DNA of 64,000 nt, from positions 1 through 64,000 of the forward strand of contig JACRLJ010000106.1 of the NCBI GenBank assembly GCA_016215105.1, in the 5' to 3' direction. Shown here in pieces: positions 9,651 through 30,731 of the stretch. The notes below the pieces were generated by a model. The model saw only the letters and a list, made by a program, of their open reading frames with translations, had not been told where the DNA came from and did not search any database. The stretch is from Candidatus Hydrogenedentota bacterium. GTDB lineage: Bacteria; Hydrogenedentota; Hydrogenedentia; Hydrogenedentales; SLHB01. Each line of letters opens with the position of its first letter. The first letter of the stretch is position 1. Both the position numbers and the translations under genes were made by a program.

Positions 9651-10997
9651 CTAGAAGTATCCCAGATTGTGCAATTCCAACCCCGCCCCTATGGCAGTCA
9701 AAGAGACAACGAACAGCGCGCCATCCAGCCATGGCAACCACATACCGTGCTTTCGCACACAATAGGCGAGCATCGGATAGTTCAGCAATTCCGCTACAGC
9801 AGTACTCAACAAGATGCCCGGAACGCCATATAGCTTTCCTGCGACGGTCATGCTTACAATCAGAAGGCACGATCGCGAAACCAACAACAACATGAATCGG
9901 AAGGAGTCGCCCACCGCCAACAAGGTCTGACTGATCGAGTTGGTGATAGCGGGAACCGTCGCGCCCCCCGCGATTAGTGTGAGCATCCACGTCGCGTCAT
10001 CATAGCGCTTGTCGTAGCACAAACGGATCAGTAAAGGTCCGAAAACCGAAAGACCACAAAGCAACGGCAAAGACAAGGCCGCTGTTCCGGCGCGCGCCCG
10101 GAGCACCTTCCGCCGCAGATCAGCAGGGTTGTGATGGATTAACTGCGCATACAACGGATAGAGGATGCGGCTTGAAAGCGTCGCAGCCACGTCTATCGGC
10201 GCTTGGGTCAGATTATAGGCCAGCGACGAAACACCCAGTGTGCCAATGCCAAGGTATCCGAGCACCAGCCTGTCACTGCGGCTAAGAATGAATCCAAGCA
10301 CACTGCTCAACAGCAGCCACTTGCCAAAATGGAAAAGCTCCGCGCGAGCCTGTGCCTCCCAGCGCAGCCCCATCCGTACTCCGCCATAGACCTTGTGACT
10401 CACCACCAATTTCACGATAGCTGTCGTGTACGACCCGACAAGCAGCGACCAGACCGATGGGAACAGGTAGCAGACACAAATGGTCGCGACTATGCCCGCA
10501 AGTTGCGTCCCCACTTCGATACGCGTCTGTTTGCCAACAATGAGATTCTTGTCGAGCGTCGCGAGGACCGTCGAGTGAAATCCCTCGATCACGGACACAA
10601 ACGCCGCGGCGCTTAGCAGTCCTATTATCTCGGGCTGCCCATACGCCATCGCCGCCGGCCACGCTATCGCGCACGCGCACAGCCAAATTATGAATCCCCG
10701 AACAATCTGAACGGTCCAGGCCGTGCGCAGAAACTCCGGCTCATTTCCTCGCTTGTTCTGAATGATGCTCGTGCCAATGCTGAAGTCCAGGAACATATGC
10801 AGTCCCTGCATGAAGATCGTAACGACCAGCATCTGCCCCAGCGCTTCCGGAAACAGCAGGCGCGTCAAGATCAAACTGCTGGCGAAACGCGCGCCCTGGC
10901 TTATCCCCGTGCCACCAATCACCCAAAACGACCCCCGAATGGCGCGCCTCTTCAGCGAAGGCCCCGTCGAAACCGACGCATCCGTCGTTTCAGTCAT
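9651..10997 (-). CDS. Oligosaccharide flippase, Wzx/MATE-like
   Basis: A roughly 448-residue polytopic membrane protein of the polysaccharide transporter family that flips undecaprenyl-linked repeat units across the inner membrane. The start RAIRGSFWVIGGTGISQGARF resembles Wzx first helices, and about twelve hydrophobic segments run to the C-terminus. I place the start at the ATG at 10997 because AGGGGG at 11010-11005 is 7 nt upstream. The next ATG out (11003) is too close to that site, and the longest frame begins at a TTG (11060). It sits between the polymerase-like gene and the last GT2 of the EPS operon, where a flippase is expected. Confidence 0.87.
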   Translation of the reverse strand: MTETTDASVSTGPSLKRRAIRGSFWVIGGTGISQGARFASSLILTRLLFPEALGQMLVVTIFMQGLHMFLDFSIGTSIIQNKRGNEPEFLRTAWTVQIVRGFIIWLCACAIAWPAAMAYGQPEIIGLLSAAAFVSVIEGFHSTVLATLDKNLIVGKQTRIEVGTQLAGIVATICVCYLFPSVWSLLVGSYTTAIVKLVVSHKVYGGVRMGLRWEAQARAELFHFGKWLLLSSVLGFILSRSDRLVLGYLGIGTLGVSSLAYNLTQAPIDVAATLSSRILYPLYAQLIHHNPADLRRKVLRARAGTAALSLPLLCGLSVFGPLLIRLCYDKRYDDATWMLTLIAGGATVPAITNSISQTLLAVGDSFRFMLLLVSRSCLLIVSMTVAGKLYGVPGILLSTAVAELLNYPMLAYCVRKHGMWLPWLDGALFVVSLTAIGAGLELHNLGYF

Positions 10998-11075
10998 TTC
11001 CATTCCCCCTGGCCAACCCGCGCTTTCGGAAGAATCCACGCGCACCCTCGGACCTGACAAGTCCCAGGTATCTCA

Positions 11076-12458
11076 TCAAGTCGCTTTCTGCGGCCGGCGG
11101 GGAACGAAGCCGCGCGGACGCGGCCTCGGGCCAGGACCAGGCGTCTGCGAAGGTTCGGGCCGGCGCGGCGCGATGCGAACCGGCGCCGCCTGAAGCGAAA
11201 GCGGAAAGATCGCGATAATGCCCCCTGCAATCCACTTGATATGCGGATCGAGCGCGGCGTCAAAAACGGCGAACGCCAAGCAGATTGGCAACACCCCCGC
11301 CATCCCGTAGGCGAGCCGGCCAAAGCGCACCCGCGCCGTCTTGGCCGCCAATCGGTGAGCCGTAAACATCGTCCAGAACCACCACCCGTAAATGCACGTC
11401 ACACCCACGAGTCCTCGTGACAACATATCAATGAGCACTTTCGAGTCCGTGGCCAAGCCTTGAATGCGGCCACGGCCCCAATTCCCGTAGCCAAAGATGA
11501 TCTGCTGGCGAATCACGTGACTGTACTGCGCAAAGGCATCAAGACGATACTGCAGCGACGCCGCTCGCTCCGGATTGTACCGAGCCAGAACGTCCACAAC
11601 CGGGTTCAAGACCTGAATGTCCATAAACAACAGAATCACCCAGAGAAACGCCGCCGCGGGAATCACGTACGCCAGCATCGCGAATTGCCGCGGCGTGTAG
11701 TACAGACCGACTAGGACCACAAACATCAGATACGGCCCGTACGACATCGAAATGATCAAGCCCACGAGCGGCGCCACGAACATCCATTTCCCGTAGGGAT
11801 ATCGCCGCGCAAGATCCTGCCGTAGCGGGAACGCCGCGAGAAAAGTACACAAAGCAAAGAAGCGCCCCAAGTCAAGCGCGTGCGGAAAACAAACCACCGG
11901 ACGCCAAAAACCGTTGCGGTAGAACTGCACGAACACATGCTGAAAGTATCCGTACATCATCGTGTGAATTTGCGGGCTCATGCGGAATTCGTACAGCGCA
12001 AACGGCAGATAACACACGCTGGCAAGCACTAAGTAGATGAGAAATGCCCGGAAGCGTTCCGGGGTGTTTAGGTGGAGGCGCCCGAGACAAATCGGAATCA
12101 CAATTTCCGTGGAGCGGAAGAATGCGTTCGAGATGCCGTCGTACACTCCGAGACCGTTGACCACGGACGTGGTCATCGAGCAGATCAACAGTCCCACAAG
12201 GAGCGCATCCAGCGGGTGAGGGCGAAACTTCACGATCAGCTCAGGGTGAAATACGAACGATCCGATCAGAACGCCCAACACGACCACTTCGGTCTTGGCA
12301 AGATTGGGCAGGACCGAGATCTTCGTCGCCCATATCTCTGGCAGGAAGAACTGCCCCAAAATCATTGCCAACGCAAAACCGCGAACGGAGTTGCGATCGA
12401 TCATAAGAAAGAACGAGAAAACTATCCACCCCAACAAAGCGATATCTGGAGGAATCAT
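11076..12458 (-). CDS. O-antigen ligase/polymerase-like membrane protein (Wzy candidate)
   Basis: A protein of about 460 residues with ten or more hydrophobic segments and a larger loop between late helices (QVLNPVVDVLARYNPERAAS), the topology of Wzy polymerases and WaaL ligases. The C-terminal 40 residues are Pro/Arg-rich and probably cytoplasmic. A GGGAGG ribosome site about 7 nt before the ATG at 12458 supports that start over the TTG at 12494. Its place between the TPR lipoprotein and the flippase supports polymerisation of EPS repeat units on the periplasmic side. A ligase role cannot be excluded because the families share the fold and diverge strongly in sequence. Confidence 0.78.
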   Translation of the reverse strand: MIPPDIALLGWIVFSFFLMIDRNSVRGFALAMILGQFFLPEIWATKISVLPNLAKTEVVVLGVLIGSFVFHPELIVKFRPHPLDALLVGLLICSMTTSVVNGLGVYDGISNAFFRSTEIVIPICLGRLHLNTPERFRAFLIYLVLASVCYLPFALYEFRMSPQIHTMMYGYFQHVFVQFYRNGFWRPVVCFPHALDLGRFFALCTFLAAFPLRQDLARRYPYGKWMFVAPLVGLIISMSYGPYLMFVVLVGLYYTPRQFAMLAYVIPAAAFLWVILLFMDIQVLNPVVDVLARYNPERAASLQYRLDAFAQYSHVIRQQIIFGYGNWGRGRIQGLATDSKVLIDMLSRGLVGVTCIYGWWFWTMFTAHRLAAKTARVRFGRLAYGMAGVLPICLAFAVFDAALDPHIKWIAGGIIAIFPLSLQAAPVRIAPRRPEPSQTPGPGPRPRPRGFVPRRPQKAT

Positions 12459-12530
12459 AGATGTCCCTCCCCGAGCCAAGGCGAGGCGTGCCAAGAAATC
12501 GCAATCTGCCCCGCCTGACGAGTCCTGAAC

Positions 12531-15410
12531 TTACGAGGCGCCAATGAGCTTCTCCGCTTCGGCGCGCCGGGGAAAATCAACTCCAAGTTGGTCCGCGTAC
12601 TGCACTGCAAGGCGGGCGTGCTCCTTGCCCTTTTCCGCGTCCCCGCTCGCAATGAGCATTTGACCATAGTCCAACAGAATGGTCGGGTCGCCGGGCTGGA
12701 GGTCCAACGCAATCGCCAAATGCTCCCGGGCGCCTTCCTTGTCGCCCGACCGCAGTTGCGCCAAACCCAGCGTATGCAGAACGTTTGGGTTATTCTTCAT
12801 CTTCTCCAGCGCTCTGGTCGAGCGGTCCACAGCCTCTTTCGCATCGCCCCCCGTCTCCAAAACGTAATACGCCAGATTGTTGTTCACAACGGGATCGTCT
12901 GGCGTAAGAACGGCTAGCTTGCGATAGGCCTCTAACGCAGACGTATTGTCCTTGCGGTCACTTGCGAACCGCGCGCACTGCTGCCAGGTGGTTATGGAAT
13001 CGGGCGCAATCTCCTTCGCCTTCGTAAGCGCCTTCTCGGCTTGGTCGTCATTGCCCGCCGAGTGATAAACTTCCGCCAACCCAATCCAGGCCGCCTCTAG
13101 ACGCGGATAGGCGCGCGTAAAATCCGTGGCCATTTCCAGCGTCTTGGTCTCAGAAGGCAGATGCGAAAGAGAGGCCAGCGCCATGGAAATCAAATCGGGC
13201 TGTTGCGGCGCGGCCGCATCCGCCTCCTTGAACGCAGCGAATGCCGTCGAGAACAAACGACTCTCGTACGACGCAAATCCATACGCGCTCGCGCTCAACG
13301 CTTCCGGATTTGCGCTCAACGCCTTTCCAAGCGTTGCGGCCGGCCCATCCTCCGGGGATTTTCCCAGCGCAACGACGATGGCGCGCCCAAGCCCTAACCC
13401 GTCGATCGGCGCGCCTTCTTTCGTCAGGAGCGGGCCGGCGGCCTCAGACACGCGGTTGGTGCGAAGCAGGGCAGCGACACACAAATACCGCATTCCCAAC
13501 GAATACGCTGACGCTTCATCCTTTCCGCAAATCTCGGCGACTCGGGGCCATTCGCCTTTCGCGGCCGACGCAAATGCGGCTAGTTCACTCGCATAACGCG
13601 ACGTTGCGGGCGTGGGCGAAGCCTTTCCGAGCGCATCCAGACACTCGTCCGCTTTGCCCGCGGCCAGGAAGGTCTCTGCCTGCATGAGGTGAGCTACAAC
13701 ACTATCCGGGTGTGATTCGACACCGCGCCGCGCCGCCAATATCGCCGAATCGTAGTCTCCGGCGTCAATGTATAGTCGCGCCAGGTGGACAAGAACGGTC
13801 TCATCTTTAGGAAACAGCGCAAATGTCGTCTGGGCGACTTCCCGCGCGCGGTCGGCGTTTCCCGAAGCGCGGTACACGCCAACCAGCGACGACCGGGCCT
13901 CGACATTCGCTGGAAACTGACCTATAAGCTTATACAACGCCCGAGCCTGGAACTCCGGCATTTTCGCCGCGCCATACATCGTCGCCAGGTTATACAGCGC
14001 CACGCCGTTCTCCGGAAAACGCTTTAGCGTTTCGGAGTACTTCAGCAGCGCCTGCGACCGGCGGTTCATTAGCGCGTACACAAATCCCGCCGCGTTTTCC
14101 CGCAAGATTTGCCGGTCGCGGTCGTCTGGCTCGTTCCATTTGTCCACTGCGGCCAGCATATCCTGCAGCTTCTTGGCCTGAAACGCCTGAACATAGTCTC
14201 GAAGCGGTGACGACGCGGGAAGCCCCTTCGCCAATTCGTCCAGCGCGCTCGTCCTCAGACTAAACAGGCACGCCAATACCAGCGTCTCCGGCAGATTGGC
14301 CCCGCCTTCCGCTACCGCCTCTTTTTCGCGGGCAAGCAGCCGCTCCAGCCTGGCTTGACGCCATAGCGCCGGCCAATGCTCGTCCGCCAAATCCGTTTCA
14401 ACCGCGGCGGGCGCCGCTTGCGCTCCCGGATCTCGTGACTTCTGCGGCTCTCGGCCTTCGCCCCTCTTTGCAATCTCGAGCAATCGAACTACGGACGACT
14501 GACGCGGCAGCGCGGCTGCCGCTTTCTGCAGATACACCTGCGCATCGGTAGGTTTGCCGCGCTTCAAAAAGCACCCACCGAGAACGTAATTTCCCCAAGG
14601 GGAGTCCGGACGCCGTTCCAGGACCGGCTTGAGCACGGCCTCGGCGTCGTCCACCGCGTCGGTCTCCATCAACGCTCGCGCAAACGCCAGTTGAACCGCC
14701 GCGTTCTTGGCCTCTGTCACAGACCGCGCCTTTAGCTTGGCCACCTCTTGCGCCAGCGTACCCTTGTCAATGAACACGTCGAGCAACGCCATCCATGCGG
14801 CCTCGGATTCCGTATCGAGACCGTCCACGACTGTTCTCAACTCCTGCTCTGCCTTGTCATACTGTTTCGCGGCCAGGCAGGCCTCCCCGAGGGCCGTCCG
14901 AACCGCCGCTACCGTTGGGTTCTTGTCGCGTAACGCGCCCAGTGTCTCGATCGCCTTGTCAAGGCGGTTCGTGTCCTTGTACACCTGCGCGGCAAGTAAC
15001 GCCCCATCGTCCGCATCGACTTTGGTCCGCTGTTCCGCCAACGCGTCGGCCTCGTCCGCTTTGCCCGCCGCAACCAGCAACGACGCTGCGCTGATATAGG
15101 CTTCCTTCAACGCGGGATCGAGTTTGATTGATTCCCTGTAAGCGGATAACGCTTCGTCGCTCTTTTTGTCCAACTCCAGAAGCCGGCCTTCCCCGTACTT
15201 CGCGCGCGCGTTGCCCGGGTTCAGCTCCAGCGCGCGCTTGAACGCCGCCTCGGCTTCCTTTGTCTTGCCGATTTTGATAAGGGTGTCGCCCTCCTGCCGC
15301 GCCTGCTCGCTTCGCCGTGCGCCGCAACCGGCCCCCGTAAACATAAGAGCGCACAACACCGCCGTCAGCGTGCAACGCCGCCAAACCGGGCCTCGCGAAA
15401 TTTCGTTCAT
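12531..15410 (-). CDS. Large TPR-repeat lipoprotein of the exosortase/EPS operon
   Basis: A roughly 959-residue protein. The signal peptide ends in a lipobox (LMFTGAGC), putting the lipidated Cys at residue 29. TPR helices follow throughout, for example EAEAAFKRALELNPGNARAK early and GAREHLAIALDLQPGDPTIL late. Similar large TPR lipoproteins accompany exosortases in PEP-CTERM/EPS loci, where they are thought to scaffold the periplasmic export machinery. The ATG at 15410 is preceded by AGGCAGG. An ATG at 15428 overlapping the epsI stop is also possible and would add six residues before the signal peptide. No catalytic motif is visible. Confidence 0.85.
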   Translation of the reverse strand: MNEISRGPVWRRCTLTAVLCALMFTGAGCGARRSEQARQEGDTLIKIGKTKEAEAAFKRALELNPGNARAKYGEGRLLELDKKSDEALSAYRESIKLDPALKEAYISAASLLVAAGKADEADALAEQRTKVDADDGALLAAQVYKDTNRLDKAIETLGALRDKNPTVAAVRTALGEACLAAKQYDKAEQELRTVVDGLDTESEAAWMALLDVFIDKGTLAQEVAKLKARSVTEAKNAAVQLAFARALMETDAVDDAEAVLKPVLERRPDSPWGNYVLGGCFLKRGKPTDAQVYLQKAAAALPRQSSVVRLLEIAKRGEGREPQKSRDPGAQAAPAAVETDLADEHWPALWRQARLERLLAREKEAVAEGGANLPETLVLACLFSLRTSALDELAKGLPASSPLRDYVQAFQAKKLQDMLAAVDKWNEPDDRDRQILRENAAGFVYALMNRRSQALLKYSETLKRFPENGVALYNLATMYGAAKMPEFQARALYKLIGQFPANVEARSSLVGVYRASGNADRAREVAQTTFALFPKDETVLVHLARLYIDAGDYDSAILAARRGVESHPDSVVAHLMQAETFLAAGKADECLDALGKASPTPATSRYASELAAFASAAKGEWPRVAEICGKDEASAYSLGMRYLCVAALLRTNRVSEAAGPLLTKEGAPIDGLGLGRAIVVALGKSPEDGPAATLGKALSANPEALSASAYGFASYESRLFSTAFAAFKEADAAAPQQPDLISMALASLSHLPSETKTLEMATDFTRAYPRLEAAWIGLAEVYHSAGNDDQAEKALTKAKEIAPDSITTWQQCARFASDRKDNTSALEAYRKLAVLTPDDPVVNNNLAYYVLETGGDAKEAVDRSTRALEKMKNNPNVLHTLGLAQLRSGDKEGAREHLAIALDLQPGDPTILLDYGQMLIASGDAEKGKEHARLAVQYADQLGVDFPRRAEAEKLIGAS

Positions 15411-15427
15411 GTACCTGCCTCGCGCCA

Positions 15428-16057
15428 TCACTTGATCCGATCCCGCACAATAGGCGTCAACTTCTCAGCGAAATCTTCCAGAGTCGCAAACGCCGCCTCA
15501 CGGCCCTGAGGGCCGACGCGCATAGTCAACTTGATCATTGACGAAGTCGGGGCGCCGCGGGTGAATTGCTCCATCGCCCAGTCCATCGCGTTGAGAAAGA
15601 AGTTTCCCGTGAAATCGTCACCAGTCTTAAACCAATACAACACCGCTTCCGTCTGATTCCCTTTTGCCAGCACCAAACGCTTCGCGGTAAATAATATCCC
15701 GACCGGGTACGGCGCCTGTTCTTGAATGTCCCAGCCGTCTCCAACCAAACACACTTCCGGAAAATGCAGGCTCCGGCGCGTGGTTCCGGCATAGACAATA
15801 GTCAGTTGCACCGGCGCGCCACGGGGAGACAGATAGTTGCGAACGAAAATGGTGCTGGTTTGAAGCACGTCCACGGTGTGGGCGTCCACACCAACCTGGT
15901 TGCCCAGTGCGCGGTACGCGCCAATCTGCTCCGGCATGTCCAGCGTCTGCATTACGGCGTCTTTCTTGACGACATCCTCTTCCTGTGCGGCAAGAAAAGA
16001 GAAGTGCCCCGCAGACGCGGCTGCAAGCAACACCAAAGTAATCACATAGTGCTTCAT
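15428..16057 (-). CDS. epsI: EpsI-family exosortase-associated protein
   Basis: A 209-residue protein with an N-terminal signal peptide or anchor (YVITLVLLAAASAGHFSFLA) and an EpsI domain. The diagnostic HxPExC segment is LHFPEVC at residues 97-103 followed by GDGW. EpsI domains occur fused to or next to exosortases of EPS loci. Here the gene is separate and its start overlaps the exosortase stop (ATGA, 16054-16057). It probably works with the exosortase in the periplasm on a membrane-linked substrate; its biochemical activity is not established. Later segments VLYWFKTGDDFTGNFF and RGAPTSSMIKLTM also match the family pattern. Confidence 0.9.
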   Translation of the reverse strand: MKHYVITLVLLAAASAGHFSFLAAQEEDVVKKDAVMQTLDMPEQIGAYRALGNQVGVDAHTVDVLQTSTIFVRNYLSPRGAPVQLTIVYAGTTRRSLHFPEVCLVGDGWDIQEQAPYPVGILFTAKRLVLAKGNQTEAVLYWFKTGDDFTGNFFLNAMDWAMEQFTRGAPTSSMIKLTMRVGPQGREAAFATLEDFAEKLTPIVRDRIK

Positions 16058-16965
16058 TCGCGGCCCTCGCCCGTCGAAGCCGCCGGCGCCCAGCGCCGCA
16101 ACTGCGTTTCAATCGCGAAAAACATGATGAACGCAACCACAAAGATCATCATACCGGAAATGTCGTGAAACTTGCCGGCGGCGACGTCGCTACCCCAAAA
16201 ATAGCCCACGATGCACAGCGCAAAAATGCGCAGTACGTTCGTTATTACGGCCACTGGGCCGGACATCAACAGCAGCGCTGCGCGCGCCCAGGGCTTTGTC
16301 TTGCTGATATAGGCCATCAACGCGCCGAACGCCAGCAGCGCGATCAATGACCGCAGCCCTCCGCACACTTCGCCGACTTGAAGTTTGTCGTTGTTAAAGT
16401 GAATGAAGGAGCCGTCCCGCACCATCGGAAGCGTACACCAATTCGCCAGCGCCACCGCGCACTGCGTCGCAAGCAACTTCAGTTTCAGCGCCACGCTCTG
16501 GGTCAGCGAGGCGGGTATGGGAACCATGAAAATCAAGAACGCTATCGGGAACCACAGCAGCCCTGTGCGGCGCCGGCCAAGTGTAACGGCGGCCACGCCG
16601 AAAAGCATTGGTATGAGAGAAAACTCCCCTGCCACGCGGAAGCCGAGAAAGTCGCTTGCCAGCAACACAAGAATCGAGGCCACAATAAGCGCATAGCCCC
16701 AGCCCGCGGGTTCGTCGTCCGATCTCATTAACCCCGCGCGCTGTTTCCAAACGAAGAAAAGGCTAATGAACGGAATGAGAAATCCGTGGGAATAGTACGA
16801 GTCCACAATTACCCATGCTTTGTACATCTCGAAACCGGAAAACCAGTAGAGCGCCGTCAGAGACGCCAGGACCAGAATGCCCAAGGGGTACCGCAGATCA
16901 AAGCGTACGCCTGCCCGGGGGACGGATCGTGACTCTCGGGCGGCTGAATTCCGGGGGGTGGTCAT
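16054..16965 (-). CDS. Exosortase (EpsH/XrtA-like transpeptidase)
   Basis: A 303-residue polytopic membrane protein with about eight hydrophobic segments. The three catalytic residues of the exosortase/archaeosortase family are all present: C201 in EVCGGLRSLIALL, R246 in VITNVLRIFAL and H267 in KFHDISGMM. The family cleaves C-terminal sorting signals such as PEP-CTERM and hands the protein to a lipid or glycan. Adjacent EpsI, TPR proteins and Wza/Wzz genes place this enzyme in the EPS-linked class. I see no PEP-CTERM-like tail in any protein of the window, so its substrates lie elsewhere or use a different signal. It overlaps both neighbours by 4 nt. Confidence 0.95.
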   Translation of the reverse strand: MTTPRNSAARESRSVPRAGVRFDLRYPLGILVLASLTALYWFSGFEMYKAWVIVDSYYSHGFLIPFISLFFVWKQRAGLMRSDDEPAGWGYALIVASILVLLASDFLGFRVAGEFSLIPMLFGVAAVTLGRRRTGLLWFPIAFLIFMVPIPASLTQSVALKLKLLATQCAVALANWCTLPMVRDGSFIHFNNDKLQVGEVCGGLRSLIALLAFGALMAYISKTKPWARAALLLMSGPVAVITNVLRIFALCIVGYFWGSDVAAGKFHDISGMMIFVVAFIMFFAIETQLRRWAPAASTGEGRE

Positions 16966-19900
16966 GATGCGCCGGCTTCCTTCGACAGTCCCTGCTCGAT
17001 TCGGAGAAGGCGGCTCTTGTCCACTCGCTCTCCCGCGTCCGCTTTCTTGCGCGCTATCTCATAGTGGTCGCGCGCCATCTTGACGTTCTTCAGACCCAGG
17101 TACGCTTCCGCAAGTCCCGCCTCCAATTGAGCCGAGCTCTCCTTCTCGGAATTCGCCAGTGGCTGCAGGTCGTCTATTGCCTGCTGATACTGACCGAGTC
17201 CGATAAGAACCAGACCCCGGAGCGCGACGAATTCGCTCTCCTTGCGCAACGCCAGCGCCTGATTAATCGACTCCAGCGCCTTCGCTAGCGTCGCCGGACT
17301 CTGCGCCTGAATGGACGCTCTGGCGTATAGCACGTCCGGGTCCTCGGGATGCGTCGCGAGGTAGCGATTGCACAGCGCCATTACTTCGATCGGGTTATTA
17401 CGGCGCACATTGATTTGAATCATGTCGCGCAGGACAGTGGCGTTCTCCGGATCGATCAGAAGCACGCGCATCAACGCCTGTGCCGCGTGCTTGAGCGTCG
17501 CGTCGTCCTTGCGCGTCAAGTAGAACTCCGCCAGGGTCAACCACCCTTGTGTCGAGTCAGAGTGCTTCTGTACGTAAGACGTCAGCAACTCTTCGGCGTC
17601 GCTCGTCCGTCCCTGCTGATCCATCGCGCGCGCCAAGTCTCGCAGAACGCCCAGGTCATCCGGATTCTTTTCCGCCTGCTCACGAAGGATGGCCTCCGCT
17701 TCTTCGCCTGCCCCTTTGGCCACCATCAGCCGCCCGCGCAGGGTCTTCACCAGGTCCGCCAGTTGCGAATCCTGGGCGGCCTTCTCCTCCAAGCGGGGCA
17801 ACAACTTACCGGCTTGCTGGATCTGGCCACTTTCAAAGTAACTCACCATCAGCATCCGCATGGCGTCCACCGAATCCGGATTGCGCTCGAGCGTCTGCTC
17901 GAGGGTCCGTTGCGCGTCCGCATGCAGCTTCAAGATCCCTTGGAGCCGCGCCAAGCGCAGTTGCGCCCCGAGCTGCATCGGCGCCTCCTCGGCTGCCCGC
18001 TTCACGTGCGCAATCGCCTTGTCAGTCTCATTCTTGCGCGACTCGATCTCGGCCAGCCACAAAAGCGCATTCACATTGGCGACGTCTCCGCTAATGGCTT
18101 TCTCAAGCAGTTCCTGCGCGGCGTCGAGGGCCGGCGGCTGCTGCTGCAACAGAATCTGCGCCTGCAACGCCAGTGCGTTCGAATTATTCGGATCGGTCTT
18201 GGCCACGTCGTCAATGAGACGCTTCGCCGTTTCACGCTGCTCCGGCGTATTCTGTTCCAGCAATTGCTGCGCTACGGACAGCTTGGCCGACAACAACGGT
18301 TGCGCGGCCACTTGCGCGGTTTCCGGCTTCGACTCAAGGTCGTTGAGAAGCTGAAGAGCGCCTCCCATATCGCCCGAACGCGCCAACATTAGAATCTTTT
18401 CGGTCAGCAACGTAATGCGCTGAGGACCCTCGACCTTCTCAGACCCTTGCGAAAGCATCTCTACTGCGACATCCGCGTGACCGCGCACCGCCATGAAACG
18501 CGCCCACCCCTGAATCTCGTCGGCCGTTACTTGCCCCTTGGCCAGCACTTGCGCAAATTGGGCCTTCGCGCCGTCCAGGTTGCGCTCCTCTAACAAAACT
18601 GCGGCGCGATTCAAATAGAACTGCTCCTCATTAATTCCGGCCGCTATTCCCCGCTCGATCACCGCCTTGGCGCCTGCCGGGTCGTGAACCGCCACCAGCA
18701 CGTCTGCCAACGTCTTGTAAGACAACCCCAACGAAGGGGATTTCACAATCGCTTTCTCCAGGGACTCCTTCACCAAGTCCAGGTTCTTCTCCGGCTTGCC
18801 TTGCTGAATCGACGCCTCGAACAGCACACGCGCCGCCGTAACCAAATCCTCGGGTTGCGCGGATTCATTCGCAAGCAAGGCGCGGGCATGCTTCTGAGCT
18901 TCCTCAGGAGATCGCTTCTGCTGGGAATCCATTTCGAGCAGCGACCGCGCGCGCTCGTCACCAGGAAAAGTCTTGACGTACGCTTCGAGTGTCGCTCGGC
19001 CCTTGTCCGCTTGCCCCGAACGCAAGTACGCTACGCCCAGCAAGAATCTCGCCGACCCAAAATCCGGCCGCTGTTGGACTAGTGTAGCAAGGCGCGCCGC
19101 GGCCCCCGAAGAATCGCCGCTTACCAGCAGTTCGCGCGATTCGAAATACTCCGCGATGTGCCCACTTTCCGGATAGGCCCGCTTGTACTGGTCAAGATAC
19201 TTCCGCGCCTCGTCCAGCTTGTTTCCCGTGATGAGCGTCTCAATCGTAGCGAAATACAGCGATTGGCTATCGAGCAGTACCGGCGCCGGCGCGCTCGTGA
19301 GTACTTCGATCGCTTTATCGAGTTGGTTCTTGCCCTGATAAACCACGCTCGCGACAATATACGCGCCCGCGTTGTCCGGCGCGCGTTCCAATGCTTTGTC
19401 CGCCAGAACTTGGGCGCGCCCCCATTCACGCTTCTTGGCGGCGAATTCGCCAGCCTCGAGCAAAATGTCGGGATCCTCCGGAGCCAATTCCAGCGCCTTG
19501 TTCAACGCGCCCTCCGCTCCCGCCGAATCACCCGCAAGCCGGAAATACTTCGCGCGTTCGAGTTGCACCCGCGCGCTATCCGGATACTTCTTGACCGCAT
19601 CGTCGAGCGTCTGCAAGGCCTGCTGCTGCAGACCGCGCTCCCGCAGCAGACGCGCAACATTTCCGTAGACGGACATGTTTGGCGCGCCTTCTTCGATCAG
19701 CGCCCGATAGGCCGCGATCGCTTCGTCCTGCCGCTGCATACCATCCTTCGCGCGCGCGCTCGCATACTTCGCCTTCGCGTCATCCGGATGCCGATCCAAT
19801 ATGTCCTTCGCATAGTATTCGAGATCTGGCCACAACTGAAGACGCTCCAGCGTGTCCAGCAGCTTGTCCTGAATTTCCGTGTTATCGGGTTGGTATTGCA

Positions 19901-20204
19901 GAATCTGCGCATACGCTATTACCGCGTCATGCTGGGTCTTGGGCCGGTTGTCCCGAACTTTCATGCAGGCGTCCGCGTACTTCAACAGTATCGCCACATC
20001 ACCCCGGTGCTGCTTCTTCTGCAGGTATAGTCCATAGGTGCGGGCGGCCTCGAACCACCTGCCGTCGCGATACAAACTTTCCGCCGCCGCCAGATTGTTC
20101 TGCGCCTTCCGCTCGCTGTACACAAAGTACCCGGCCAGAGCTGCGCCGGCCGCCGCCAACAACACGACGTGCGCAATAATGACGTATATCCAGATTCTCT
20201 TCAT
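16962..20204 (-). CDS. Membrane-anchored giant TPR-repeat protein
   Basis: About 1080 residues: a short cytoplasmic start, one membrane helix (IWIYVIIAHVVLLAAAGAALA, residues about 4-25), then tetratricopeptide repeats to the end (for example ALNKALELAPEDPDILLEAG, ALERAPDNAGAYIVA, TLEQTLERNPDSVDAM). This matches the PrsT-type TPR proteins of PEP-CTERM/exosortase EPS loci, which probably act as periplasmic scaffolds. The ATG at 20204 is preceded by AGGAA about 10 nt upstream; a longer reading to 20270 would run into the wecG-like gene and lacks support. The stop overlaps the exosortase start (16962-16965). No enzymatic motif is visible. Confidence 0.87.
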   Translation of the reverse strand: MKRIWIYVIIAHVVLLAAAGAALAGYFVYSERKAQNNLAAAESLYRDGRWFEAARTYGLYLQKKQHRGDVAILLKYADACMKVRDNRPKTQHDAVIAYAQILQYQPDNTEIQDKLLDTLERLQLWPDLEYYAKDILDRHPDDAKAKYASARAKDGMQRQDEAIAAYRALIEEGAPNMSVYGNVARLLRERGLQQQALQTLDDAVKKYPDSARVQLERAKYFRLAGDSAGAEGALNKALELAPEDPDILLEAGEFAAKKREWGRAQVLADKALERAPDNAGAYIVASVVYQGKNQLDKAIEVLTSAPAPVLLDSQSLYFATIETLITGNKLDEARKYLDQYKRAYPESGHIAEYFESRELLVSGDSSGAAARLATLVQQRPDFGSARFLLGVAYLRSGQADKGRATLEAYVKTFPGDERARSLLEMDSQQKRSPEEAQKHARALLANESAQPEDLVTAARVLFEASIQQGKPEKNLDLVKESLEKAIVKSPSLGLSYKTLADVLVAVHDPAGAKAVIERGIAAGINEEQFYLNRAAVLLEERNLDGAKAQFAQVLAKGQVTADEIQGWARFMAVRGHADVAVEMLSQGSEKVEGPQRITLLTEKILMLARSGDMGGALQLLNDLESKPETAQVAAQPLLSAKLSVAQQLLEQNTPEQRETAKRLIDDVAKTDPNNSNALALQAQILLQQQPPALDAAQELLEKAISGDVANVNALLWLAEIESRKNETDKAIAHVKRAAEEAPMQLGAQLRLARLQGILKLHADAQRTLEQTLERNPDSVDAMRMLMVSYFESGQIQQAGKLLPRLEEKAAQDSQLADLVKTLRGRLMVAKGAGEEAEAILREQAEKNPDDLGVLRDLARAMDQQGRTSDAEELLTSYVQKHSDSTQGWLTLAEFYLTRKDDATLKHAAQALMRVLLIDPENATVLRDMIQINVRRNNPIEVMALCNRYLATHPEDPDVLYARASIQAQSPATLAKALESINQALALRKESEFVALRGLVLIGLGQYQQAIDDLQPLANSEKESSAQLEAGLAEAYLGLKNVKMARDHYEIARKKADAGERVDKSRLLRIEQGLSKEAGAS

Positions 20205-20218
20205 GCGGGAATCAGTTC

Positions 20219-21199
20219 CTACTTTCCTGCTGGTCTCTCGGCCCGGCGCGACTTCCAAAATTCGCGCCACGCCAGCGCTAGAAACAAGCTATCTTCAATC
20301 AGATAACGCCGCCAAAGCCGCCGAGGCTCCATGCATAGCCGCCAAGACCACTCCAGGCCGAACCGCTGCATCCATACTGGCGCCCGGCGTACTCGGCCCG
20401 CCACAAAATCCAAACCGGCGCCAACCCCAATCATAACCGGAACTCCGCTCGCCACGCTGTGGCCGCGCATCCACGTTTCCTGACGAGGAGACCCCAGCGC
20501 AACAAAACAAATGTCCGGAGCGGAATCCCGCAGGAGCGCGATCACCCGTGAATTCTCCCGCTCGTCGCGCTCAAAATACAGTGGCGGGCTATAAACACCC
20601 GTCACCCGCAATCCCGGATACCGCCGGCAGAGACGCTGGCTGGCCTCCGCCGCGACACCCTCCGCGGCGCCCAGGAAGAACACCGAATAACCGTGGCCCG
20701 CCGCGTATTCCGAAAGAAGCGGCACCATGTCCGACCCGCTCAACTTCTCCTTTAGCGGCCTGCCGAGCAGCTTCGCCGCCCACATCAGTGGCATTCCGTC
20801 GGGAAGCGACAAGAACGCCGCGGAATAGGCCTCCCGAAACGTCTCATCCGAATGACAGCGGCAGATATGATCCACGTTCGGGGTAACGATGATGCCCGGA
20901 GCCCGGCGCTCGATGCGCTCGCCGATTCGCTGAAAAACTTCCGCCCGGCTGAGATTCGATATCCGCAATCCAAATAACTCGACCGTGTCCCCATTGGAAA
21001 CAACACACGACTCCGCCGCCGGAGTTCCCGGCTGCAAGGAAGTGCGCTCGTAACGGACTCCGTCGGAATTGATCGTATCCACCTCGCGTTCCACTAACTC
21101 TTGCGGCGCCACGATAGTCTCTTCCCCGCCTTTGTCACGGCTTGCGTACACCAAGCGGTCGAGCAGGAACTCCTCCGACCACTGCGTACGGCGAAACAT
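20219..21199 (-). CDS. WecG/TagA/CpsF family glycosyltransferase
   Basis: This protein has up to 326 residues. The catalytic domain (residues about 75-300) has the family pattern GIIVTPNVDHI, FLSLPDGMPLMWAAKLLG, YSVFFLGAAEGVA and ICFVALGSPRQETWM, as in UDP-ManNAcA or ManNAc transferases (GT26) that add the second sugar to undecaprenyl-PP-linked intermediates. The ATG at 21199 overlaps the acyltransferase gene by 65 nt and adds about 75 residues before the usual domain. A GTG at 21112 with GGGGA upstream would avoid the overlap, so the start is uncertain. It lies in the EPS operon between the acyltransferase and the giant TPR gene. Confidence 0.88.
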   Translation of the reverse strand: MFRRTQWSEEFLLDRLVYASRDKGGEETIVAPQELVEREVDTINSDGVRYERTSLQPGTPAAESCVVSNGDTVELFGLRISNLSRAEVFQRIGERIERRAPGIIVTPNVDHICRCHSDETFREAYSAAFLSLPDGMPLMWAAKLLGRPLKEKLSGSDMVPLLSEYAAGHGYSVFFLGAAEGVAAEASQRLCRRYPGLRVTGVYSPPLYFERDERENSRVIALLRDSAPDICFVALGSPRQETWMRGHSVASGVPVMIGVGAGLDFVAGRVRRAPVWMQRFGLEWSWRLCMEPRRLWRRYLIEDSLFLALAWREFWKSRRAERPAGK

Positions 21200-21740
21200 C
21201 CTTGGTGACTACCGCATTGGCGCCTACAACCGCGCCGTCCCCTACCGTCACGCCGCGCAATACACACACGCCTCGGCCCAGCCAGGCATCACTGCCAATC
21301 GACACCGGCGCCACGTCGTAGGGTTGGCTGCGAACCAATTCTCCGCGCCGGGAACCGTGATTCTGGTCGCGAATCGTCACATACTCGCCAATCATCGTAT
21401 TGTCGCCAATTCGGACTTCCTGATACGCCACGATGGTCGCGCCATCATTGATGGTCACATGTCTTCCGATTTCGATGCGGCCTGCTCCATCCGTCTTGAG
21501 ATAGGTCCGCCGGCCGACCCGCGTTCCAGCGCCAATATGCACGTTGCGCGTGCCTTCCACGGTAATCACACCGATGAACTGGGCCCCAGCTTCGACCCGG
21601 CCCCGGATTTGACCGCGGCCCCAGATCTCGTACAGGAATCGGGCCAAGCGCAAACGCAACGGCGCCGCCACTCGCAGAGGCCAGCCAAGTAACGCCGCCA
21701 ACCGCGAACGAAACACCACCAAAGGACCGGGAAGTCGCAT
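21135..21740 (-). CDS. Hexapeptide-repeat acyltransferase (WcaF/maltose O-acetyltransferase-like)
   Basis: A 201-residue left-handed beta-helix acyltransferase. Hexapeptide repeats cover residues about 60-185 (IEIGRHVTINDGATIVA, VRIGDNTMIGEYVTI, VSIGSDAWLGRGVCVLRGV, VTVGDGAVVGANAVVTKDV). The loop with DQNHG holds the catalytic His expected in xenobiotic/WcaF-type acetyltransferases, and the protein ends with GVPARPLG. It most likely puts acetyl groups from acetyl-CoA on an EPS sugar in the cytoplasm. It precedes the WecG-like gene with a 65-nt overlap if that gene starts at its first ATG. The acceptor is unknown. Confidence 0.9.
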   Translation of the reverse strand: MRLPGPLVVFRSRLAALLGWPLRVAAPLRLRLARFLYEIWGRGQIRGRVEAGAQFIGVITVEGTRNVHIGAGTRVGRRTYLKTDGAGRIEIGRHVTINDGATIVAYQEVRIGDNTMIGEYVTIRDQNHGSRRGELVRSQPYDVAPVSIGSDAWLGRGVCVLRGVTVGDGAVVGANAVVTKDVSPYAVVGGVPARPLGVRKP

Positions 21741-21822: not shown

Positions 21823-24159
21823 TCACGGCGCTGAACCGCCCGCCTGCTTCTGTTCCGAGTGGGCGTCATCAACTATTAATATCGCGGGAGGAATGTGCTC
21901 TTCGCCGTATTCCTCGTCCAATACCGCCATCTCCGGTAGTTCGGTGTCCAACTGAGCTCCGTCGCGTCCCTCGGAGTATGCGTAGTATTGCTCCATATTC
22001 CGGCTCAGGTAACCGCCTCGCGTCGGACGAATGCCATTGAGTACAACTCCAATAACGTTCGCGCCGCCCTGCTGAAGCTCCGTCAGGCACCGTTTGAGCA
22101 TTCCAATGGTAGAGACGCCAACGCCCGCAACGGCGATCACGCCGTCCACAATCGGCGCTAACAGCCGGGCGTCGGACATGATCAACGACGGCGGAGTGTC
22201 GATAATGACGTGTTCAAATGTCTCTTCGGCGTGCTCCAGGAACTCCACAATGTCCCGCGACGCCAGCTTGCCAATTAACTCGCTGCCCCGCAGTCCGGGT
22301 CCAAGCACAAACAGGTTCGGAAACTCCGTCGCCCGAACCAACTCCATGAAGTTATGTTTGGAACACAAGACCTCGCCCAAACCTTCCGCGGGCGCCAATC
22401 CAAATGAATGCTCGATACTCGGATGACGCACACTGATATCCACCAGGAGCACGCGCCGGTTGGCCTGCGCCAGCGACACCGCCAGATTGCTCGCCAACGC
22501 CGTCTTGCCATCGCCGCGCGAGGGACTCACCACCAGGCAGGTGTTCAACTCCGCGCTGCCTTCCGGCGGGTAAATAATCCGGGTCAGTATCCGCCGGTAC
22601 TCGTCCGCGGTAGTCGATGCCGGATGATCCGCCGTCAGTAGCGGGGTGTGAGTGTTCGACGGGAGCTGATCCGCGCTGACGTGCGGTACGGTAGCTAAGA
22701 TGGGAAGATTGGTGACATACGCAATGTCCTGGCCCGACCGTAACTGCTGGTCCGTCAATTCGCGCAAAAGCCCCGCGCCCAACGCGGCGCCCAGCGAACC
22801 CATGACCGCCATGATAATGAACTGAAAGCGGGTGCCAAAGTCTGGCCGCGTCGGTTTCGACGCCTGAGACGCAACCGTCACCGCCGCCGGCGCGGTGCGG
22901 TCCATGTCGATCTGATCGATCTGCCCCTGCATGCGATCGCGCATCTTCTTGGTCTCTTCACGCTTCTCCAGGAGTTCCTTGATCTGACTCTCGATCGCCG
23001 CCGCTTCCGAGCGCTCTTTCTTGTGGTCCGCGATCCGTCCCGCAAAATCGCTTGCGCGTTGCTTGGCGCCCTCCGCGATCTTCTCCGCCGCCGCCAGTTC
23101 CACGGTGTACTTGGCTTTGACCGATTGCAGCATCTCCCCGCGGACCTCGCGCTGGGTCTGAACCAGCTTGGATTTCAGGGACTCCAACTGGTGTTTCATC
23201 ACCTTGAGTTGCGGCGCGTCGGCCTGAAGAATGTTGCCCTTCTCCGCCAATTCCCCTTCTTGTCTCGTAATCTGACTCCGCAGCGACGCGACATTCATGT
23301 CCGCGATCACACGGTCTTCGATACCTTGGGCGAAGATTGCCGCGTCCGGCGTGCTCTTGTACTGGACCTGAAGTTCCTCAACCTGCGCAAGAAGGTTCTT
23401 CACACGCTCCACGTCCTTGTCGGCAGTCGTTTGGTCCGCTTGCGCTCTGGCGAGATTCTCATTAAACGACATCGTCTCGCTCAGGCCCAACTCCGTCCCC
23501 ACGCTGCTTTCCGGCATATCGAGCTTCTTCCGAAGCGTGCTAATGACGTCGTTATACTGCCGCAATTCAATATCACGCGACTGGACACTATCCGACAAGG
23601 TCTTGCGAATCCACCCCCCGGTCTCCGTGGTCTGCTGAGCGTCATAGTCAATGTATTCCTTGACGGTCTGCTGCACAATCAAATACGCCGCGTTGGGGTC
23701 CGTCAGCTTGCACGAAACCGTTACCAGTTCACTACCGGCCTGGTTGCGCGCCAAGACGTACTTGGAAAGAAACGCCAGCTGATCATCGGCCTTGTCGATC
23801 AGCGGCAGGTGCCGTATTCCTGCGTCATTGAGCACCCGCGCCTGGATCGTTGGGCCGGCGATGAGGCGAACCTGCGTTTCCAGATACTTGTCGTAGTTTG
23901 TGCCTCTGGAATTCGATTCCGTGGAACTCAGTGTGGGCCGACTGCTCGCAAACCGCAGAATCGCGGTCGCCTGATACTTCACCGGTGACAGCAGCCACGC
24001 AGCGATACTCCCCGGAATCGCCAGCGCCAGGAACACCACAATCATGAGCTTCGCGCGTAAGCGCAACAAACGCTTTATATTGATGGTCCGCGGTTGCACT
24101 GCGGCCGCGGGCGCATCGGAACCCCCCGCCGAAAACTCCGTCGAATACTCCGTGGTCAT
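21823..24159 (-). CDS. Polysaccharide co-polymerase with BY-kinase domain (Wzz/GumC plus Wzc-type kinase)
   Basis: About 778 residues. The N-terminal Wzz domain (residues about 25-130) starts with a membrane helix (LMIVVFLALAIPGSIAAWLL). A long coiled-coil follows, then a second helix (FQFIIMAVMGSLGAALGAGLL, near 450). The cytoplasmic kinase has Walker A GDGKT near residue 550, Walker A' VLLVDIS, where tyrosine kinases usually have a D-x-D, and Walker B HVIIDTPPS. A Tyr-rich tail (QYYAYSEG, EEYGEE) suits autophosphorylation. AAGGAG lies 5 nt from the ATG at 24159. It controls EPS chain length and export together with the Wza-like lipoprotein upstream; the 270-nt gap between them holds nothing I recognise. 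Confidence 0.92.
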   Translation of the reverse strand: MTTEYSTEFSAGGSDAPAAAVQPRTINIKRLLRLRAKLMIVVFLALAIPGSIAAWLLSPVKYQATAILRFASSRPTLSSTESNSRGTNYDKYLETQVRLIAGPTIQARVLNDAGIRHLPLIDKADDQLAFLSKYVLARNQAGSELVTVSCKLTDPNAAYLIVQQTVKEYIDYDAQQTTETGGWIRKTLSDSVQSRDIELRQYNDVISTLRKKLDMPESSVGTELGLSETMSFNENLARAQADQTTADKDVERVKNLLAQVEELQVQYKSTPDAAIFAQGIEDRVIADMNVASLRSQITRQEGELAEKGNILQADAPQLKVMKHQLESLKSKLVQTQREVRGEMLQSVKAKYTVELAAAEKIAEGAKQRASDFAGRIADHKKERSEAAAIESQIKELLEKREETKKMRDRMQGQIDQIDMDRTAPAAVTVASQASKPTRPDFGTRFQFIIMAVMGSLGAALGAGLLRELTDQQLRSGQDIAYVTNLPILATVPHVSADQLPSNTHTPLLTADHPASTTADEYRRILTRIIYPPEGSAELNTCLVVSPSRGDGKTALASNLAVSLAQANRRVLLVDISVRHPSIEHSFGLAPAEGLGEVLCSKHNFMELVRATEFPNLFVLGPGLRGSELIGKLASRDIVEFLEHAEETFEHVIIDTPPSLIMSDARLLAPIVDGVIAVAGVGVSTIGMLKRCLTELQQGGANVIGVVLNGIRPTRGGYLSRNMEQYYAYSEGRDGAQLDTELPEMAVLDEEYGEEHIPPAILIVDDAHSEQKQAGGSAP

Positions 24160-24429
24160 TAACACTCCTTATCAAATGATTTGCGGCCGCATGGACTCTG
24201 CTGAGCGCCTGCGTCCGCTCTTTCGCATCACTGCCACACTCGCGTGAGCCGTTGCTCATCTACCCACGGCACAACTCTAAACCGCGTCATACGATGAACC
24301 CGGTCGAAGAGAAGCCGCTACCTCGTTCCGGCCGCAAGCCAATTCTCGTAACCGGCGCAAAGCATACGGGTAGCGCATTTCGGCCGCGGGTAGCCGCCAG
24401 CCACATCCGCAGAGCGCCGTCAAGCAACT

Positions 24430-25665
24430 CTACGGTTTGAGAACACCCAAGCCGCTCAGCCCCGAAACGATCGAATTCGCATTCTGCAACTGTTGTATAT
24501 AGCCCTGAACACCGCCCAAGACCTTGTTGTCGAACGTGCGGTGGAATTGCGCCGCCGTGTAATACGTACTCCAAGCCTGGTTGTACAAGCCCATCAACGG
24601 CGACAACGATCCCGTGAACCGGCCCACAAACTCCTGGGCGCGGACCAAGTCCTTCCTGGGCACATACACCACGTCGCCCGGCTTCAGCGGAACGTCCTGG
24701 CCTGTGGAAAGAATGTGCTTCAAATCAACAATGAGGACTTCCGTATGAGTTTCGTCCACCTCACGCAGAAGTACAACGTGCTTCAACTTCGCCGTCGAAA
24801 AATCCGGGCCGCCAGTCCGAACGATCAACTCTAGCAACTTCATGCCTTCCGTCATCTGGAAAACGCCTGGAGAGCGTACCTCGCCTATCACGTAAATCAA
24901 GTTCACGCCTTCCGGCACATACACAATGTCGCCCGGATATACCGGTGTGTCCGAAGCATGGGGTCCCGGACTACTCAAGTTGCGCAGATCGTATTCCGTG
25001 ATCTGGCGCTCGTCGCCCACGTGCCGAATAATGAGCGCCTTGGTGAGTTGGCCTTGCTGACCCACAAACGTATCGCCTGAGCGCTGGTTTATCCGCAGAC
25101 CGCCCGCGGTGTTAATCGCGTCCAGCAAGGTGGTATCGCGCTTATAGGGAAATTCCGCCGCCTTGTTGACGTCGCCCATGACATAGAAAGACTTGCTGCG
25201 AGACTCGCGAATCGTCAATGAAACCTGCGGGTCCTTGAATACCTTCGAGTACGCCTTGCGAATCATGTCCTCCGCCTGGCTCCGCGTAGCGTTCTTCACC
25301 ACGAGATCCGGAACCAAGGGAAGCGATATGCATCCGTCGTACCGTACCGTGACCGAACTCGACAAGCTGGGATCGTCCAGCGAGCGAAAATCGAGCAAGT
25401 CGTCCGGTCCTATCGGGTATTCGTCGGGGTTGGGCGCGTTGGCGGCGGCGGCCGCCCCCGGTTCAGGCGTCCCACCAAGGGCCGGCGCCGGCGCTTGTTC
25501 GCCGCGCAGCTCCGACGTCGGAACCGTCGCCTTGTCCGACACCGCCGACATCGTCTTTACCTGCTTTACTGAGCCTTCAGCGCGATCGGGCGATCCGCCG
25601 CCGGACGTTGCACATCCCGCCGCCATCGCCAGCGCCGCCAGTATTCCCACCAACTTTATTCGCAT
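24430..25665 (-). CDS. Outer-membrane polysaccharide export lipoprotein (Wza/GfcE-like)
   Basis: About 411 residues. The signal peptide ends with the lipobox MAAGC, lipidated at C18. The polysaccharide-export domain begins at YPIGPDDLLDFRSLDDPSLS with the typical VRYDGCISLPLV...EDMIRKAYSKVFKDPQVSLTI. Soluble ligand-binding beta-grasp (SLBB) segments follow (FYVMGDVNKAAEFPY, IYVIGEVRSPGVFQM, LKPGDVVYVPRKDLV). GGGAG precedes the ATG at 25665. The protein should form the outer-membrane channel for EPS and dock with the Wzz/BY-kinase protein encoded next. It lies 36 nt downstream of the sigma-54 activator gene, so the two are very probably cotranscribed. Confidence 0.93.
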   Translation of the reverse strand: MRIKLVGILAALAMAAGCATSGGGSPDRAEGSVKQVKTMSAVSDKATVPTSELRGEQAPAPALGGTPEPGAAAAANAPNPDEYPIGPDDLLDFRSLDDPSLSSSVTVRYDGCISLPLVPDLVVKNATRSQAEDMIRKAYSKVFKDPQVSLTIRESRSKSFYVMGDVNKAAEFPYKRDTTLLDAINTAGGLRINQRSGDTFVGQQGQLTKALIIRHVGDERQITEYDLRNLSSPGPHASDTPVYPGDIVYVPEGVNLIYVIGEVRSPGVFQMTEGMKLLELIVRTGGPDFSTAKLKHVVLLREVDETHTEVLIVDLKHILSTGQDVPLKPGDVVYVPRKDLVRAQEFVGRFTGSLSPLMGLYNQAWSTYYTAAQFHRTFDNKVLGGVQGYIQQLQNANSIVSGLSGLGVLKP

Positions 25666-25701
25666 TTGGCCACTCCCTCGCTCCAACACGTCGTCGTTCC
25701 G

Positions 25702-26778: not shown

Positions 26779-26873
26779 AGTGTCCTCGACTTTACCAAGC
26801 TGATAAACTTCTCTTCACGCGAGCGGAGAATATAGTCTCCGCTCTCCCATAGTAGCGCTTCACGGACCAACAT

Positions 26874-26890
26874 CAGCACGTTCCGTGCCA
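26874..26890 (-). promoter_or_regulatory. Candidate sigma-54 (-24/-12) promoter of the EPS operon
   Basis: On the minus strand TGGCAC (26890-26885), a 5-nt spacer and GTGC (26879-26876) match the TGGCAC-N5-TTGC consensus with one mismatch. The invariant GG (26889-26888) and GC (26877-26876) are exactly 10 nt apart. Transcription would start near 26864, giving a leader of about 85 nt before the activator ATG at 26778. The neighbour encodes a sigma-54 activator, which makes the match much more credible. Confidence 0.65.
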
Positions 26891-26928
26891 TAGCAGGACG
26901 AGACGCAAGATGCGGAACCAAGTCTACA

Positions 26929-26960
26929 GAACCCACAACTGATTGGGTTCGAGACGTCTC
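26929..26960. promoter_or_regulatory. Inverted repeats upstream of the sigma-54 promoter (possible enhancer site)
   Basis: GAACCCA (26929-26935) and TGGGTTC (26944-26950) form a 7-bp inverted repeat with an 8-nt spacer, centred about 75 nt upstream of the predicted start. The 10-bp palindrome GAGACGTCTC follows at 26951-26960. Enhancer sites of sigma-54 activators usually lie 80-150 nt upstream, so either is a candidate binding site; this is inference only. Confidence 0.3.
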
Positions 26961-27005
26961 ACGCCGCCTCCGATTCCCCGGTTTCAGGTAAGATCCCTAT
27001 GCGCA

Positions 27006-27035
27006 TGTGATATCACAAGCGCTACTATTTGTCAA
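27006..27035 (-). promoter_or_regulatory. 12-bp palindrome over a candidate sigma-70 promoter
   Basis: On the minus strand TTGACA (27035-27030) and TATCAC (27012-27007) are 17 nt apart, a reasonable sigma-70 promoter. The perfect palindrome TGTGATATCACA (27006-27017) covers the -10 box and could be a repressor operator. Alternatively it is a distal enhancer site, about 145 nt upstream of the predicted sigma-54 start. It is not a CRP site, whose half-sites are 6 bp apart. Confidence 0.35.
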
Positions 27036-27283
27036 ACTTGATAAAGTGTTAGTCATATTATGTCCATCCATTGCTCCGGGTGATAACCTCGCTAGCCTAT
27101 CCGCCCGCAATGCGCCAACCGCCTTATTTGGGCTGACGTCAATCCGAGCCACTGAAAGACAAAACGCGAAACTCCACGATTCCCCGAACGACTGTCGGAG
27201 TCTGTGGAACTTCGCGTCAGTTCCCTTACATTGTGCTCGACGCCACACCGTAGATGGTGGCTCCAAGCCGTTCTAATGCAGAC

Positions 27284-30328: not shown

Positions 30329-30373
30329 AGTCTCAATCCTCCTCGTCCACAATCTGCGCGCTCACGTCCTAGA

Positions 30374-30493: not shown

Positions 30494-30731
30494 AGCGTAC
30501 CACGAAGTTCGGGCGCGCGCCAGCGCGTAAGTACCTTGTCGACCGCATCGAAACACGGATCGACCGGGCCTCTCACATAGTGAACCGGGAATTACTGCGC
30601 AAAGCGCATGCCAGATTATCAGCCCTTCTCCGTCTCGCCCGTCCCACCAGCTTAAATCATTATGAGACAACCCGTTATGGCGCTTCTTAGACTCTGGATG
30701 GACAATTTGGCAGGAGGGAGAATCGGCTCCA

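Follow-up and report, generated by a model that had tools for sequence, protein, structure and literature searches.

A predicted sigma-54 promoter and enhancer of a receiver-less activator gene, and a candidate regulon linking EPS/exosortase genes to PEP-CTERM genes in Hydrogenedentota

Introduction

A link of PEP-CTERM genes to PrsK/PrsR and sigma-54 was described by Haft et al. (2006), with motifs in Proteobacteria only (PMC1569441). The Proteobacterial PrsK/PrsR motif has 17 nt and ends in TTTACA, and its mean spacer is 63 (PMC1569441). The same authors expected that further regulators and motifs would be found (PMC1569441). In addition, pepA, a PEP-CTERM gene of Aquincola, is rpoN1-dependent (PMC9850573). 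In established sigma-54 transcription, an activator bound to a dyad loops to the sigma-54 closed complex and opens it (PMC7057263). PspF and HrpR/HrpS are receiver-less EBPs of type Ic (PMC3162934; PMC7057263), and HrpR/HrpS are a precedent for mixed hexamers (PMC7057263).

Here, we studied the DNA upstream of a receiver-less activator gene in a Candidatus Hydrogenedentota bacterium (contig JACRLJ010000106.1). The whole stretch that was analysed, of 64,000 nucleotides, is called the window. A first-pass annotation of positions 26779-27035 had described a self-governed EPS/exosortase operon, with a sigma-54 promoter and palindromes in front of the activator gene. Our literature search, which covered few subscription papers, returned no paper that describes this regulator or motif. 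What is new here is a candidate regulator, together with a predicted binding motif and regulon, for a lineage outside Proteobacteria.

Results

The Pfam domains of the activator are AAA+ (residues 30-195), lid (201-263) and HTH_8 (310-350), and the absence of any input domain is thereby confirmed. Our comparison set consisted of the window activator and 29 orthologues from relatives, which are 52-71% identical to it, are all receiver-less and align to it only from about residue 9-20. One more genome, G038, is the 31st with an orthologue, and its locus lies outside the 30-locus set. Of the 68 genomes of this phylum that we examined, 31 thus carried the receiver-less activator; all 68 belong to one order, and many of the relatives are incomplete metagenome-assembled genomes. 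In the phylogenetic tree, the receiver-less activators were monophyletic with a support of 100/100. Their HTH is nearly invariant, which fits the requirement set by a conserved dyad (see below). The GAFTGA contact loop reads GAFTDA and GAFTSA in the orthologues L010 and L033.

The activator gene is the first of 12 consecutive genes on one strand (Table 1), as the first-pass annotation had stated for a twelve-gene EPS operon. The run has one 264-bp gap (24166-24429) after the export gene, so that the operon may be split. The export gene adjoins the activator gene in 29 of the 30 loci. In the genome as a whole, the exosortase (TIGR02602), EpsI (TIGR02914) and PEP-CTERM (PF07589) models of the exosortase/PEP-CTERM system are all matched above cut-off, and the exosortase stays below the cut-off of the XrtA subtype (184.5 vs 208).

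Table 1. Coordinates of the features in the window
Feature	Position	Strand	Basis
Enhancer (UAS) dyad TTTATCA-AGTT-TGACAAA (predicted)	27028..27045	-	symmetric-PWM discovery, kept spacing, motif before PEP-CTERM genes
Sigma-54 -24/-12 promoter box TGGCACGGAACGTGCT (predicted)	26875..26890	-	consensus match, orthologue conservation, rpoN present
Predicted 5' leader	26779..26864	-	start near 26864 from distance rule, counted from -12 element
Receiver-less NtrC-family sigma-54 activator, 358 aa	25702..26778	-	AAA+ with GAFTGA, lid, Fis-type HTH
Outer-membrane polysaccharide export protein (Poly_export/SLBB)	24430..25689	-	profile match
Chain-length determinant / tyrosine autokinase	21823..24165	-	profile match
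Hexapeptide acyltransferase	21135..21740	-	profile match
WecG/TagA/CpsF glycosyltransferase	20219..21199	-	TIGR00696 above cut-off
TPR protein, PrsT-like	16962..20270	-	under PrsT cut-off
Exosortase (EpsH family)	16054..16965	-	TIGR02602 and PF09721 above cut-off
EpsI-family exosortase-associated protein	15428..16057	-	TIGR02914 above cut-off
Second PrsT-like TPR protein	12531..15431	-	profile match
Multi-pass membrane protein, probable polysaccharide polymerase or ligase	11076..12494	-	sequence only; no NCBIfam match
Polysaccharide flippase	9651..11060	-	profile match
Family 2 glycosyltransferase, last gene of the run	8688..9629	-	profile match

To the minus strand of the upstream region belongs a -24/-12 box of the TGGCAC-N5-TTGC type, TGGCACGGAACGTGCT (26890-26875), which keeps the invariant GG and GC and matches TGGCACGNNNNTTGCW at 15 of 16 positions. 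It contains the GG-N10-GC at 26889-26876 that had been proposed as a sigma-54 promoter element. The distance from the box to the ATG of the activator gene is 112 bp; start codons were assigned mechanically, so such ATG distances may be off, and the UAS-to-box gaps given below are unaffected. The genome has one copy of rpoN, at C98 (PF04552). A single box with at most one mismatch is poor evidence when it comes without conservation. For instance, there were 49 such boxes in 6.68 Mb compared with 62 for a reversed control pattern, and we rejected these genome-wide counts as a proof of promoters, because the control pattern is as frequent and the counts are uninformative. With box and motif thresholds chosen by hand, 19 of the 30 orthologous promoters had a strong box in the 300 bp ahead of the gene, against 1.6 in dinucleotide shuffles. 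This is the conservation that the first-pass annotation had asked to be checked, and because of it we take the predicted box upstream of the activator gene to be real and conserved.

A strong box was missing in the other 11 promoters. Among these, G010 and G021 carry TGGCATGACAATTGTT instead, in which GT replaces GC at -12. Furthermore, in G010, G015 and G021 the immediate upstream neighbour is a PEP-CTERM gene that has a UAS and a box for itself.

A hairpin in the leader (26821-26844) was rejected as a conserved RNA element, since 19 orthologous leaders were folded and no excess structure was found. The identical 16-base box occurs elsewhere in the genome (C97:23081-23096, L068), between two other sigma-54 activator genes and without UAS. 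A second good sigma-54 box of the window, TGGCATGCGCTTTGCG (30598-30613, minus), has no UAS of at least 12 bits nearby and is found some 250 bp ahead of the gene preceding the activator, which codes for a cohesin/IPT-domain surface protein (27284-30352).

Symmetric motif discovery in the 400 bp upstream of the 30 loci gave a single dyad, TTtgTCAaattTGAcaAA, i.e. TTTGTCA-N4-TGACAAA, with a motif score of 200 compared with 48-57 in eight shuffled sets. At a threshold of at least 12 bits, the dyad was present in 25 of the 30 orthologous promoters (0.5 expected) and in none of 27 far-upstream controls. In the window it reads TTTATCAAGTTTGACAAA (27045-27028, minus) and scores 21.1 bits with the window left out of training. 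Its near end is 137 bp from the box, within the roughly 100-150 bp expected for the activator site of a sigma-54 promoter, and its centre is some 172 bp upstream of the predicted start. It crosses the upper edge of the interval 26779-27035. The spacing is also kept: the UAS-to-box gap is 133-143 bp in 12 of 17 measurable loci (exactly 139 in six), and the remaining gaps are near 115, 150, 160 and 183 bp. For the GT-type boxes of G010 and G021, the gaps are 159 and 162 bp. We therefore regard the conserved dyad as the true enhancer, as predicted from these comparisons; it had been overlooked in the first-pass annotation.

The first-pass annotation had pointed to three inverted repeats at enhancer-like distances. 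They are present exactly as described, namely GAACCC-N10-GGGTTC (26929-26950), GAGACGTCTC (26951-26960) and TGTGATATCACA (27006-27017), and they are slightly above chance (two perfect palindromes of at least 10 bp, p = 0.026; longest 12 bp, p = 0.056). However, when up to two mismatches were allowed, they recurred in 0, 4 and 0 of the 29 orthologues, compared with 1.0, 4.3 and 1.3 in shuffles. The proposed conservation of the palindromes thus failed, and we rejected them as the enhancer. The idea that the 27006 palindrome or a sigma-70 promoter sets the basal level is unsupported too. The palindrome is unconserved, and the sigma-70-like site at 27086-27057 is no better than expected from shuffles. 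The existence of that site, and of boxes with at most one mismatch that are no commoner genome-wide than the control pattern, could suggest that the box and the palindromes arose by chance and that transcription of the operon starts from a sigma-70 promoter. We consider this highly improbable: the box, the dyad and their spacing are conserved, the motif carries over to PEP-CTERM genes, and the sigma-70-like site is within expectation.

The UAS-to-box gaps cluster near 97, 107, 117 and 139 bp. A strict 10.5-bp helical phasing was not adopted; it is only suggestive, because a period closer to 10 fits the PEP-CTERM gaps best and we tested it post hoc. Between UAS and box, some orthologues (L019, L020, L027 and L028) have a second possible dyad, CACTA-N0-4-TAGTG. 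A further UAS match (C74:2910-2927, L072; 20.2 bits) lies between two genes, ahead of a DegT-like aminotransferase gene (family assigned by eye), and was rejected as a target because no recognisable sigma-54 box is nearby. The matches at C55:718 and at 28217-28234 of the window are within coding sequence and were taken as chance.

Outside the activator promoter, the dyad was found at PEP-CTERM genes. When 30 sigma-54 boxes of the same genome were examined, only two others had a UAS upstream, and both lie ahead of genes with a PEP-CTERM signal. The genome has ten PEP-CTERM genes, eight of them with readable upstream sequence, and the box score is at least 22.5 in all eight. Five of the eight have both UAS and box (gaps of 77, 96, 129, 140 and 218 bp), compared with 0 of 27 other sigma-54 boxes (p = 0.00017). 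The three others (L080, L082 and L089) have a sigma-54 box without UAS and may therefore answer to a different sigma-54 activator.

For an independent test, we used the PEP-CTERM genes of 20 relatives and a motif trained solely on activator promoters. Among 29 assessable genes, 24 had a box, 20 a UAS and 20 both, against 1.6, 0.7 and 0.0 in shuffles that keep single-base composition only. In addition, PEP-CTERM proteins were found in 20 of 20 genomes with the activator and in 5 of 19 without it (p = 8e-7). In G005 (83% complete), UAS sites precede PEP-CTERM genes and the receiver-less orthologue was not found. By these predicted sites, the activator promoter belongs to a regulon that joins the EPS/exosortase operon to exosortase substrates, and the surface proteins of the regulon are the expected cargo of the operon's exosortase.

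A paralogue with receiver, AAA+ and HTH, here called the sister activator, is encoded in the same genome (C110:34917-36482; L251, L269). Over 60 genomes, both activators were present in 27, the receiver-less one alone in four and the sister alone in three (Fisher p = 2e-9), and most genomes with only one of the pair are incomplete. In the tree, the sister clade (100/100) groups with the receiver-less clade and one further response regulator of the same genome, and this joint group is separated from all other activators of the genome that the tree contains (100/100). The recognition helices of the two activators are similar (SYQTLRRRI vs SYSSLLRRI). In G004, G010 and G015, the gene order is sister activator, site, box, PEP-CTERM gene, receiver-less activator and export gene.

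Just upstream of the sister gene lies a gene for a kinase-like protein with an N-terminal receiver, for which a weak HisKA match was seen in one of two copies scanned. Divergent from it, a sigma-54 box stands 106-108 bp from a UAS in 7 of 7 same-family genomes examined, and this box precedes the gene of a small degenerate-GGDEF protein (L299:3974-4573 on the genome's own C110, and the same place in L301-L305). We read 15 receivers among the sister and its orthologues (L270-L298), and in every one of them Glu (xELLPEAGL or similar) stands where the phospho-acceptor Asp is expected; this Glu is possibly a natural phospho-mimic.

These results raise the question of which activator reads the dyad. 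The sister, fed by the kinase-like protein, could be the reader and the receiver-less activator one of its targets that acts downstream, in a feed-forward cascade without autoregulation. The co-occurrence of the two activators, their shared clade and similar HTH, the sister gene beside UAS sites, the UAS at the kinase-like gene in 7 of 7 genomes and the sites of G005 without a receiver-less gene all argue for this possibility, which we nevertheless find doubtful. As the sole reader, the sister is at odds with G011 (93% complete), in which the receiver-less activator is present and no sister orthologue was found. It is also at odds with four genomes of the same order and another family (G055, G037, G053 and G047), in which no UAS was found at the kinase/sister operon and which keep the UAS at the receiver-less promoters. 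Furthermore, the end bases of the sites differ: all seven sites of the GGDEF gene, at the kinase/sister operon, begin and end with G/C, which holds for 0 of 24 sites of the receiver-less activator (p = 4e-7, with orthologous sites being non-independent observations). The PEP-CTERM sites are mixed, with G/C at both ends in 3 of 30 and at 13 of 60 ends. This split suggests two related readers with overlapping preference.

The mixed end bases of the overlapping PEP-CTERM sites, together with the co-occurrence and the common clade, would also fit mixed hexamers of the HrpR/HrpS kind, in which both activators bind the same sites and neither works alone. We think this improbable, given the four genomes with only the receiver-less activator and the three with only the sister, mostly incomplete as they are.

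Discussion

Taken together, the region is probably the control of a sigma-54 regulon that couples EPS synthesis and exosortase sorting to PEP-CTERM substrates, with the receiver-less activator as the likeliest reader of the dyad. The box, the dyad, their fixed spacing, the regulon and the co-occurrence are established at the level of sequence. RNA polymerase-sigma54 would wait at 26890-26875, and an activator bound to the dyad would loop to the polymerase and open the promoter of the receiver-less activator and the EPS/exosortase genes. What we infer is the identity of the dyad-binding protein, that the feedback is positive, and the timing. If the receiver-less activator is the reader, a positive feedback loop would result, and the UAS-plus-box pairs before distant PEP-CTERM genes would add a feed-forward to the cargo. 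Because the activator is sensor-less, its control must then lie in its amount, in a partner or in the sister activator, and it is probably partnered with, or first fired by, the receiver-bearing sister.

Autoregulation of the activator's own promoter is likely. The positive feedback switch proposed in the first-pass annotation gains a box and an enhancer at the right distance, while the binder and the sign are those of our model. The term self-governed is only partly supported: a sigma-54 promoter and a UAS do lie at the receiver-less activator gene, but the same pair precedes PEP-CTERM genes genome-wide, and the sister could read the dyad too.

A more speculative idea, which we hold to be unlikely, is a phosphorylation-independent two-activator switch. 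Here the receiver-less EBP and the sister, with a permanently phospho-mimicking Glu in its receiver, would act on overlapping enhancers, perhaps as mixed hexamers. How strongly they are expressed, and the degenerate GGDEF protein that they control, would set their activity. If true, this would tie PEP-CTERM/EPS production to c-di-GMP signalling.

On the main reading, a single small activator without a sensor, probably partnered, appears to turn on slime, sorting enzyme and cargo together. Testable predictions follow for the binding site, the spacing and the targets. How the switch is thrown remains a puzzle, as one activator is without a receiver and the other without a phospho-acceptor.

In comparison with NtrC-type two-component systems, the sister likewise has receiver, AAA+ and HTH, and a kinase-like gene with a receiver lies just upstream. 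The difference is the Glu at the phospho-acceptor position in 15 of 15 orthologues read.

Like PspF and HrpR/HrpS, the activator has a central AAA+ domain with GAFTGA and a Fis-type HTH, and lacks an N-terminal sensor; its control is expected to act in trans or through its amount. It differs in its targets, and a PspA- or HrpV-like partner was not met in an unsystematic look. We rejected its identity with PspF, as it scored 273.6 bits against 443.55 for TIGR02974 and 229 against 529 for NF008622.

PrsK/PrsR was rejected as the regulator, since neither model reaches its cut-off. For the PrsK kinase (TIGR02916), 0 of 60 genomes were above cut-off and the best match had about 127 bits vs 300. For PrsR (TIGR02915, cut-off 502.6), the activator had 267 bits and four receiver-bearing EBPs, two of them from the same genome, had 308-315. 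Nevertheless, the likeness to the PrsK/PrsR system is clear in its layout. In both, an activator site and then a -24/-12 box lie ahead of dispersed PEP-CTERM genes, the regulator gene is near EPS/exosortase genes, and PrsT-like TPR proteins occur. In contrast, the activator at the head of the operon is here without a receiver, the motif TTTGTCA-N4-TGACAAA stands at gaps that are mostly near 97, 107, 117 or 139 bp, and the site also occurs at the EPS/exosortase operon of the activator itself.
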